DNA of 64,000 nt from Cytophagaceae bacterium (GTDB lineage Bacteria > Bacteroidota > Bacteroidia > Cytophagales > Spirosomataceae): NCBI GenBank assembly GCA_027486845.1, contig JAIXOL010000001.1:62001-126000 (forward strand), written 5' to 3'. Below, piece by piece: positions 3,202-6,957 of this stretch. The notes under the pieces were generated by a model. It was not told the DNA's origin, did not search any database, and saw nothing but the letters and a program-made list of their open reading frames with translations. Position 1 is the first letter of the stretch, and each line of letters opens with the position of its first letter. The position numbers and the translations under genes were made by a program.

Positions 3202-3471
3202 ATGGCAAAAGAATCAATAAAAGCAAGAGATAGAAAGAAAGCAGCTTGTGTTGCTAAATATGCTGTAAAGCGTGCTGCTTTGAAAGAGGCGGGTGACCTA
3301 ATCGGCTTAGACAAACTACCTCGTAATGCTTCACCTGTACGTTTACATAATCGTTGTCAATTGACAGGTCGTCCGAGAGGATATATGCGTAAGTTCGGTA
3401 TCAATCGTGTTACTTTCCGTGAAATGGCAAGCAAAGGGTTAATACCAGGAGTTACTAAAGCATCTTGGTAG
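3202..3471 (+). CDS. rpsN: 30S ribosomal protein S14, zinc-independent form
   Basis: 89 residues. The C-terminal half [26 protein letters not shown] is the S14 signature. The longer length and the absence of the paired CxxC motifs of the short zinc-ribbon form put it in the zinc-independent class. S14 sits in the 30S head. It ends the first transcription block; a 200 bp gap with a promoter and an RNA hairpin separates it from rpsH. Confidence 0.97.
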
Positions 3472-3591
3472 TTTCAGATATAGTATTTATTGTGATGTGA
3501 ATATTCAAAGTTATTTTATAATATATTTAAGAATATTTAGTCTTCAACATAAAAACTGTCTCAGTTATTACTTTTTATAAAAAATATTTTC

Positions 3592-3599
3592 TAATTTTG
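3592..3599 (+). promoter_or_regulatory. Bacteroidota -7 box upstream of rpsH
   Basis: TAATTTTG fits the Bacteroidota consensus TAnnTTTG. It is the only clear match in the 200 bp rpsN-rpsH gap. No good TTG -33 element is seen at 19-21 bp spacing. The implied transcription start, at about 3605, would put the hairpin at 3601-3646 at the extreme 5' end of the message. Confidence 0.6.
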
Positions 3600-3600
3600 C

Positions 3601-3646
3601 AGCCCAGTTAAGAAAGTCGTGCTTACGATACTGCTTAACGCTGGCT
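3601..3646 (+). promoter_or_regulatory. putative S8-binding leader hairpin (16S helix-21 mimic)
   Basis: The element folds as one nested stem: AGC(3601-3603)/GCT(3644-3646), CAG(3605-3607)/CTG(3641-3643), TTAAG(3608-3612)/CTTAA(3634-3638), AG(3615-3616)/CT(3631-3632), bulged TA at 3629-3630, and TCGT(3617-3620)/ACGA(3625-3628) closed by the loop GCTT. The strands AGTC and GATACT are the same as the core S8-binding strands of 16S helix 21 (E. coli 596-599 and 639-644), including the bulge. The rpsH start codon lies 25 nt downstream. S8 is a known autoregulator of its own operon in E. coli, so this looks like an S8 feedback leader. Sequence and fold are seen; binding is inferred. Confidence 0.7.
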
Positions 3647-3671
3647 AGGTATCCAAAATTAAATATCAAAA

Positions 3672-4073
3672 ATGATTACAACGGATCCAATAGCAGACTT
3701 CCTTACCAGAATCCGAAATGCCATAAAGGCACGTCATAGAGTGGTAGAAATTCCTGCTTCGAACATCAAAAAAGCGATTACTCAAGTACTTTACGATAAA
3801 GGCTTTATTCAAAGTTATAAATTCGATGAAGTTGCTCCTCAAGGAGTAATCAAAATTGCATTAAAGTACAATCCAGTTACCAAACAATCGGCAATTGTAG
3901 AATTGAAGAGAGTTTCTAAGCCGGGCTTACGTAAATATGCAGGTACTACTGATATTCCACGTGTTTTAAATGGTTTGGGTATTGCTATCGTCTCTACATC
4001 TAAAGGTGTAATGACAGATAAAGAAGCTCGTGCATTAAAAGTGGGTGGTGAAGTCCTATGCTACGTATACTAA
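3672..4073 (+). CDS. rpsH: 30S ribosomal protein S8
   Basis: 133 residues beginning [20 protein letters not shown], the S8 hallmark, with the C-terminal signature [20 protein letters not shown] and the final [10 protein letters not shown]8 is a primary binder of 16S rRNA helix 21 in the 30S platform. It is the first gene of the second block of the superoperon and has its own candidate promoter and leader hairpin. In Enterobacteria S8 represses the spc operon translationally by binding an rRNA-like site in the mRNA; the leader here suggests the same logic with a different location. Confidence 0.98.
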
Positions 4074-6162: not shown

Positions 6163-6957
6163 ATGAAATTAGAATCTCTAAAGCCTAATAAAGGTTCAGT
6201 AAAAGCAAATGACAGAGTAGGTCGTGGACACGGTTCTGGTGGTGGTGGTACTGCTAAGCGTGGTCACAAGGGTGCAAAGTCTCGTTCAGGTTACAGCCAG
6301 AAGCGTGGTTTTGAAGGTGGTCAAATGCCCTTACAACGTCGTGTTCCTAAGTTTGGTTTCAAAAATATCAATCGTGTTGAGTACAAAGCTATCAATTTGG
6401 ATACAATTCAATCATTATTTGATAAAACTGGTATTTCTGATATTGATTTAGGTGTATTGTATAGTAATGGTCTTATCTCTAAATCTGATTTGGTAAAAGT
6501 ATTAGGTCGTGGTGAGTTGACTGCAATGGTTAATTTACGTGCAAATGCTTTCTCTGCATCTGCAATTGCAGCTATTGAGAAGGTAGGTGGTACCGCTAAT
6601 GTAGATGCTACATTAAATAGAGATACTGCTACTTTAGTTGAGCAAACAGTTGCCGAAGTTATTGTTACTGAAAAGCCGACAAAAATAAAAAAAAAAGTTG
6701 AAGGTGACGATTTAAAATTAATTGAAGGAGTTGGTCCGAAAATTGCAAATTTGTTAATTAATGCAGGAATTGTTACATTTGCAGATTTAGCAGCAACTTC
6801 TGCTGAGAAAGTTTCTGAAATTCTTAGTGCAGCAGGTTCGAACTTTGCTTCACATAACCCTGCTACTTGGGCAGATCAAGCCTCTTTGGCTCGTGATTGT
6901 AAGTGGGATGAGTTAAAAGAATTGCAAGACAGACTCAACGGAGGTAGAGCTGAGTAA
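6163..6957 (+). CDS. rplO: 50S ribosomal protein L15 fused to a helix-hairpin-helix domain
   Basis: 264 residues, against about 145-150 for a normal L15. Residues 1 to about 150 are a complete L15 (MKLESLKPNKGSVK, GRGHGSGGGGTAKRGHKGAK, GFEGGQMPLQRRVPKFGF). A basic linker (residues about 160-178, KPTKIKKKVEG) leads to a C-terminal domain of about 80 residues containing LKLIEGVGPKIANLLINAG and FADLAATSAEKVSEILSAAG. This is a helix-hairpin-helix domain resembling one that, from memory, is fused to L21 in many Bacteroidota. The linker is encoded by a run of ten A residues (6687-6696). L15 helps late 50S assembly; the HhH domain may add RNA or DNA contact. rplO is directly followed by secY. Confidence 0.95.
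   Translation: MKLESLKPNKGSVKANDRVGRGHGSGGGGTAKRGHKGAKSRSGYSQKRGFEGGQMPLQRRVPKFGFKNINRVEYKAINLDTIQSLFDKTGISDIDLGVLYSNGLISKSDLVKVLGRGELTAMVNLRANAFSASAIAAIEKVGGTANVDATLNRDTATLVEQTVAEVIVTEKPTKIKKKVEGDDLKLIEGVGPKIANLLINAGIVTFADLAATSAEKVSEILSAAGSNFASHNPATWADQASLARDCKWDELKELQDRLNGGRAE

Follow-up and report, generated by a model that had tools for sequence, protein, structure and literature searches.

The window, as we call the whole 64,000-nt stretch of DNA that was analysed, belongs to an Emticicia-like genome of the Cytophagales and carries a ribosomal protein gene cluster in the order rpsC, rplP, rpmC, rpsQ, rplN, rplX, rplE, rpsN, a 200-nt gap, rpsH, rplF, rplR, rpsE, rpmD, rplO, and secY. Gene names were assigned to open reading frames by inspection, with Pfam checks for S8, the rpsC tail, and rplO. 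Intergenic gaps among the ribosomal protein genes between 1035 and 6163 are often long (e.g., 100, 117, 200, 146, and 165 nt), unlike those of tightly coupled operons. The gene of main interest is rpsH (3672-4073, plus strand; Ribosomal_S8, PF00410, E 1.5e-51), which encodes ribosomal protein S8, the proposed ligand and target of the element described below. The predicted protein is 97% identical to S8 of two Emticicia strains and 99% identical to that of a Cytophagaceae MAG, and its sequence retains the S-T-S tripeptide by which S8 stacks on A642 (PMC4176348).

Within the gap before rpsH, the sequence TAATTTTG at 3592-3599 (plus strand) has the form of the -7 type promoter box of Bacteroidota, TAnnTTTG (consensus from PMC6847099), and lies just upstream of a hairpin, as the reading made earlier from the sequence alone (hereafter the sequence-only reading) had noted. 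In F. johnsoniae this box spans positions -12 to -5 (PMC6847099), which would put the transcription start at 3604 on the plus strand, give or take a few bases, and make the hairpin the 5′ end of the mRNA. The box is found 7 nt upstream of the aligned leader in all 18 distinct leaders of the window's own type (type I, below). More broadly, of the 70 distinct regions at order level, 61 have a TAnnTTTGC within the final 140 nt upstream of rpsH, as have 55 of the 75 named regions, compared to 0.7 and 0.55, respectively, in letter shuffles; at class level it precedes rpsH in 8 of 40 regions, and at phylum level in none of 12. Based on this conservation, rpsH seems to open its own transcription unit in Cytophagales, and the earlier suggestion that a second unit begins at this gene thereby gains support. 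As seen by eye, a short GC hairpin often comes directly after the Cytophagales box before rpsH, including in regions that lack an S8 core.

The leader hairpin proper occupies 3607-3639 on the plus strand, as delimited by folding, RNAalifold, pair counts in 18 relatives, and a covariance model. It consists of an outer helix (3607-3612 with 3634-3639), a core resembling the S8-binding site of 16S rRNA, two inner pairs (3619-3626 and 3620-3625), and a GCUU loop. The 5′ strand of the core, AAGUC (3614-3618, plus strand; invariant in all 18 relatives), corresponds in E. coli numbering to A595, A596, G597, U598, and C599, and the 3′ strand, GAUACU (3627-3632, plus strand), to G639, A640, U641, A642, C643, and U644, so that the two strands and the bulge claimed by the sequence-only reading are confirmed at the level of the core letters. 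In the S8 register A596 pairs with U644, G597 with C643, U598 with A640, and C599 with G639, while U641 and A642 are bulged and A595 is present. The lowest-energy fold comprises 3607-3612/3634-3639, 3616-3620/3625-3629, the GCUU loop, and an additional stem at 3601-3604/3643-3646, and it differs from the S8 register in pairing G3616 with U3629; the S8 register was imposed on the alignment, with A3615-U3632 and G3616-C3631 paired and U3629-A3630 bulged. The hairpin had originally been drawn from 3601 to 3646. Its inner part, 3607-3639, is supported, but the possible outer clamp of GCC (3602-3604) with GGC (3643-3645), which spans 3602-3645 on the plus strand, comes from the single-sequence fold, does not vary in any of the 18 relatives, and lies across the predicted start, so that with a start near 3604 it may be largely untranscribed.

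Depending on where its 3′ end is placed, the hairpin stops 26-32 nt before the rpsH ATG (32 nt for the supported hairpin ending at 3639), and C643 lies 40 nt upstream of the ATG. No T-run follows on the 3′ side, and hence no intrinsic terminator is evident. The fold energy is unremarkable (-16.0 kcal/mol vs. -11.7 ± 3.3 kcal/mol for shuffled sequences, z = -1.3; 20 of 200 shuffles fold equally well), and the case is decided by conservation.

The S8 site has been described as containing the base triples A595-(A596-U644) and (G597-C643)-U641 along with an invariant A642, with any nucleotide at 641 in natural sites (PMC4176348). By sequence comparison, all of these elements are found in the window hairpin. 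Since the window's own assembly gave no 16S match, helix 21 was taken from five other genomes; the core AAGUC/GAUACU is identical, letter for letter, to helix 21 of a genome of the same genus (L224), and no shared sequence was seen outside the core. A further difference from helix 21 is that the inner stem of the type I hairpin comprises two or three pairs and ends in a short loop.

Short words alone are no evidence of such a site, as the bare words occur near background: AAGTC followed after 4-60 nt by GATACT is found 66 times on the forward and 62 times on the reverse strand genome-wide, compared to 58 and 63 times for the reversed pattern, with no clear excess. A second perfect-looking copy with a matching inner stem, on contig C48, reads as coding sequence on the opposite strand and was taken as chance. 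The picture changes as the pattern is tightened, with the caveat that all scan patterns were composed after the leaders were known and accepted inner pairs leaving a two-base loop. A loose core pattern matched 16 times on the plus strand of the 64-kb window and 7 times on the other, the same pattern with A595 matched 5 times vs. 0, and the consensus core (AAGTC or AGGTY) once vs. 0, the single match being the rpsH leader. In the 269,696 bases of the 80 named loci, the consensus core occurs 8 times on the coding strand, always 48-60 nt upstream of rpsH, and 3 times on the other strand. Among 197 distinct regions upstream of rpsH (210 fetched, with 13 duplicates dropped before counting), 49 contain the loose core, vs. 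an average of 4.7 and a maximum of 7 in 20 rounds of dinucleotide shuffling.

Leaders of the window's type (type I) are present in 6 of the 80 named relatives: a Cytophagaceae MAG (L009), two Emticicia (L010 and L011), two Lacihabitans (L033 and L038), and MAG LEAD1 (L046). With further genomes of the same family the set grew to 28 leaders, from which 10 duplicates were removed to give 18 distinct sequences. Apart from position 641, with 14 U and 4 A, the core is invariant across all 18, although the types were collected with core-containing patterns, so that the fixed core is partly a product of selection. Around this fixed core, compensatory changes occur at 7 pairs among the 18 rows, or 6 if the innermost pair (columns 23-27) is left aside; that pair is doubtful because closing it would shrink the loop to two bases in 17 of 18 rows, and without it the double changes number 36 cells in 6 pairs. 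Overall, 99.3% of cells are paired. Double changes are seen in 37 cells, compared to 13.1 in shuffled alignments (none of 500 attains 37), and slid controls never exceed 8. Of the five covariation measures, two come out weak in type I: 42 of 500 shuffles contain at least as many double-change pairs (7), and all 500 at least as many further pair types. Neither the core pairs nor the outer GCC/GGC clamp varies at all across the type I rows. Because there is next to no variation in the core pairs within any one type, the evidence that they pair comes from the 16S match and from the changes between types.

A covariance model built from the 18 rows (R1) scores 77.4 bits at 3599-3654, and the next best match in the window scores 13.5 bits. 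Searched against 150 genomes of the family, R1 matched 25, once each, and 24 of the 25 matches end 16-21 nt upstream of the S8 match; the remaining one (G014) sits at the extreme end of a contig, directly after rpsN. Every one of the 24 S8-holding genomes in six genera (g1, g20, g22, g23, g34, and g35) is among those matched; together with the compensation at 6-7 pairs in 18 relatives, these matches bear out the conservation and covariation of the stem that the sequence-only reading had proposed as a check. No R1 match was found upstream of S8 in the other 113 of the 137 S8-holding family genomes (best 37 candidates per genome scored), nor was an alternative S8 site found for these 113. At class level R1 matched 6 of 395 genomes, five of them (E 0.005-0.06) without S8 nearby. 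All genome-wide model searches scored the best 14-77 first-look candidates per genome under strict filters, and a missing match is thus no proof of absence.

The sequence-only reading had caught part of the picture: the same core occurs before rpsH in other scaffolds in other Bacteroidota families. In Sphingobacteriales, type II leaders carry the core AGGUC/GAAACC upstream of rpsH, within the sequence GATAG-CAGGUC-loop-GAAACC-ACTATC or variants of it, in all 17 named Sphingobacteriales-type loci and all 6 regions of family f23. RNAalifold, run without a given structure, pairs the core as G-C, G-C, U-A, and C-G and leaves 641-642 unpaired. In 22 rows, 99.0% of cells are paired and 8 show double changes, vs. 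2.3 in shuffles; the weak measures are the number of double-change pairs (reached by 70 of 500 shuffles) and of further pair types (284 of 500).

Type III leaders, whose host family is probably Flavobacteriaceae, have the core AGGUU/AAAACC upstream of rpsH, in which 599-639 is U-A. The sequence GGUU-AGGUU-stem-AAAACC-ACC, or variants, was found in 19 of 22 regions of family f26, and the three lacking it have a very short gap. Two rows with long loops (L173 and L212) were excluded, leaving 17 of 19 aligned, for which 96.6% of cells are paired and 30 show double changes compared to 7.9 in shuffles; again the number of double-change pairs (reached by 23 of 500 shuffles) and of further pair types (1 of 500) were the weaker measures. 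In the RNAalifold structure the partner of U598 is the final A of the run, not A640. We read the type in the S8 register because L203, with GAAUACC, has a U exactly at 641; the other 16 of the 17 rows have A there.

Models of types III and II (R2 and R3, respectively) each matched 15 of 395 genomes of the class, with S8 at the match in 13 genomes for R2 (2 without) and 14 for R3 (1 without). In searches of single families, R2 matched 46 of 80 genomes (family of G261) and R3 58 of 81 (family of G242), and of these 104 matches, S8 was located at the match in all 49 newly fetched loci, which were drawn from the 30 best matches per model. The alignments fitted to these models favor the modeled structure by construction, and with that reservation type III shows 55 double-change cells vs. 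15.1 in 30 rows (54 vs. 14.4 in the 29 rows left after excluding one identical to a model row) and type II 18 vs. 4.6 in 28 distinct rows (16 vs. 3.5 in 25 rows after excluding three such rows); with the identical rows excluded, 0 of 500 shuffles reached the observed number in either type. The 596-644 pairing fails in 2 of the 30 type III rows.

Across types, 596-644 is A-U or G-C, 599-639 is C-G or U-A, and 641 is U or A, whereas 642 is A in every aligned row; in types II and III, unlike helix 21, 596-644 is a G-C pair and 641 is mostly A. Judged from the aligned letters, this pattern of variation suits an S8 site. Among 53 of the 80 named loci and the window, R3 had no match to type I, and R2 none to types I or II, so that only the core appears to be common to the types. 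Because at least two other scaffolds before rpsH carry this core, the leaders look like a family of S8 leaders. A fourth form, AGGUC-stem-GAAACC, is present in 3 of the 6 regions of family f19 (L162, L272, and L273; genera g54 and g80), where it comes after rpsN and ahead of a promoter-like TATCTTTG box, some 100 nt upstream of rpsH; being upstream of that box, the core would occur only on read-through transcripts. One region of family f27 (L194) shows a weaker likeness to the S8 core by eye. A different small hairpin in the rpsN-rpsH gap of Bacteroidales-type genomes, roughly TGTCnGG...CCnGATnAA (L050, L077, L088, L179, and L199), was rejected by eye as an S8 core, since 642 is not A in all. 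No core was seen in the remaining fetched upstream regions.

The core, its conservation, the covariation surrounding it, and its fixed place before rpsH are thus direct observations. Three features by which ribosomal leaders are recognized were found here: a consistent place upstream of the gene for the proposed ligand, a covarying secondary structure (with two of five measures weak for types I and II), and an S8 core as in helix 21 (G597-C643, U598-A640, N641, A642, and the triple 595-596-644). What we infer is that S8 binds the leader, that translation is the step repressed, and how far the control extends. Taken as a whole, the comparative evidence makes it very probable that the hairpins are S8-binding leaders that mediate autogenous control.

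Under the mechanism we propose, the mRNA would begin at the TAnnTTTG promoter between rpsN and rpsH, with the hairpin at its 5′ end. When S8 exceeds its binding site on 16S rRNA, free S8 would bind the copy of helix 21 in the leader. In Bacteroidota, start regions do without a Shine-Dalgarno sequence, upstream adenines help initiation, and structure between -20 and +20 tunes it (PMC6847099). Bound S8 may hinder loading of the 30S subunit on the A-rich start region of rpsH, which has no Shine-Dalgarno sequence, and S8 synthesis would then fall. Expression of rplF and later genes could perhaps be lowered as well, through mRNA decay or polarity. The long gaps before and after rpsH (200 and 146 nt) make coupling in the style of E. 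coli doubtful, however, and control from rplF onward is a guess.

We lean toward translational repression of rpsH as the main step. A variant of the same explanation, in which the S8-bound leader acts chiefly on transcription or mRNA decay, seems a less likely but serious candidate. Type I leaders lie farther upstream, with C643 40 nt and the hairpin end 32 nt from the ATG, outside the -20 to +20 zone of low pairing in F. johnsoniae (PMC6847099), so that for them S8 might also act on mRNA decay or on early transcription, and in the three f19 genomes the core precedes a promoter-like box about 100 nt before rpsH. Against this variant, the missing T-run offers no sign of a terminator, and types II and III are only about 19-27 nt upstream of the start of the protein match, where a bound protein would be near enough to the start to interfere.

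It is improbable that the 5′-end hairpin merely protects the mRNA or reflects promoter structure, with letters like those of the S8 site present by coincidence or descent. The ordinary fold energy of the window hairpin and the core-less GC hairpins seen by eye after the same box in many other Cytophagales would agree with such a role. Yet it does not require a fixed asymmetric AAGUC/GAWACU core amid changing helices, and in the scaffolds of other families the same core mostly stands without an adjoining box (7 of the 22 type II leaders and 6 of the 19 of type III have a box within 70 nt of the hairpin). Least probable of all is another ribosomal protein or factor as the ligand: the flanking genes up- and downstream also encode ribosomal proteins, and the gene adjoining a leader is often not that of its ligand (PMC7247131), but what is conserved are the letters of the S8 site, the one site used for comparison, and the element is directly before rpsH in the checked members of all three types.

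Autogenous control by S8 through a copy of helix 21 is known in E. coli, at rplE, and is presumed in V. cholerae (PMC10931766). Like the spc operator of E. coli, the leader S8 sites described here have the helix-21 S8 core stem in an mRNA that carries rpsH and would share its feedback by mimicry (PMC10931766); the leader should work like that operator but is a distinct element. The E. coli operator coincides in part with the start of rplE, which stands two genes before rpsH, and it uses coupling and retroregulation, whereas the Bacteroidota leader is directly before rpsH and after rpsN, with its own promoter box and a different scaffold. The leader does not overlap the rplE start, and scanning for the consensus core gave nothing around rplE, either in the window or in the named loci, which mostly extend 1.5 kb upstream of rpsH.

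Other candidate leaders have been reported from this phylum. Those for L13, S4, S15, and S16 in Bacteroidia and Flavobacteria (Eckert and Weinberg, 2020; PMC7247131) are likewise conserved hairpins before ribosomal protein genes and candidates for autogenous control; Table 1 of that survey has 20 leaders and no S8 entry. A transcriptome of F. psychrophilum lists 64 structured 5′ regions (PMC9723704). Rfam 15 gave no match at gathering score in the 64-kb window, and within 3450-3800 the only match was to a snoRNA on the other strand at chance level (E 9.5). In the open-licence literature, supplements excluded, we found no description of a Bacteroidota S8 leader. We see about even chances that S8 feedback at the rpsN-rpsH boundary is both widespread and undescribed in Bacteroidia, with a core of some 10 nt built into several scaffolds by repeated origin or by rapid turnover of its surroundings. 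Outside bacteria, the RPS22B intron of yeast (Rps22 is the S8 homolog) also serves autogenous control by a protein of the uS8 family, but through splicing, and its likeness to the bacterial S8 site is left open by the source (PMC13232506).

According to a 2024 review (PMC10931766), it is not known how the spc operon is controlled in B. subtilis and other species, and phylogenetic work on the question has not moved forward. For several families of a phylum in which translation starts independently of Shine-Dalgarno pairing, the leaders give a testable answer on this point. In addition, these presumed S8 sites make up a natural series in which A642 is fixed, while 641 (U or A) and 596-644 (A-U or G-C) are free to change, and they may show how often a mimic of rRNA can arise in mRNA.

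Type I leaders share one more element, a GGnAUCC located 3′ of the hairpin (3648-3654, plus strand), which could pair with GGAUCC in codons 4-6 of rpsH. It is present in all 18 leaders, the pattern used to collect them having itself contained GGnAUCC. The pairing, in which the variable middle base becomes a bulge, would close a loop around the rpsH start codon; of 16 extended leaders folded, 9 have it in their lowest-energy structure. Threonine codon 4 of rpsH is ACG, although ACG accounts for 11 of 139 threonine codons in 15 genes of the stretch; however, Dyadobacter has ACG at the same codon without a GGnAUCC partner. Pairing of GGUAUC with the core strand GAUACU was considered and rejected by eye, as it fails in leaders with GAAAC or GGCAUC.

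Two other products of the cluster were noted for their C-termini. The rpsC product (84-494) has a long tail rich in Gly, Arg, and Asn after the S3 C-terminal domain (Pfam: residues 1-41 of the 136 aa in the stretch), and rplO (6163-6957) encodes an L15 with an additional C-terminal helix-hairpin-helix domain (PF14520, residues 183-220; PF14229).
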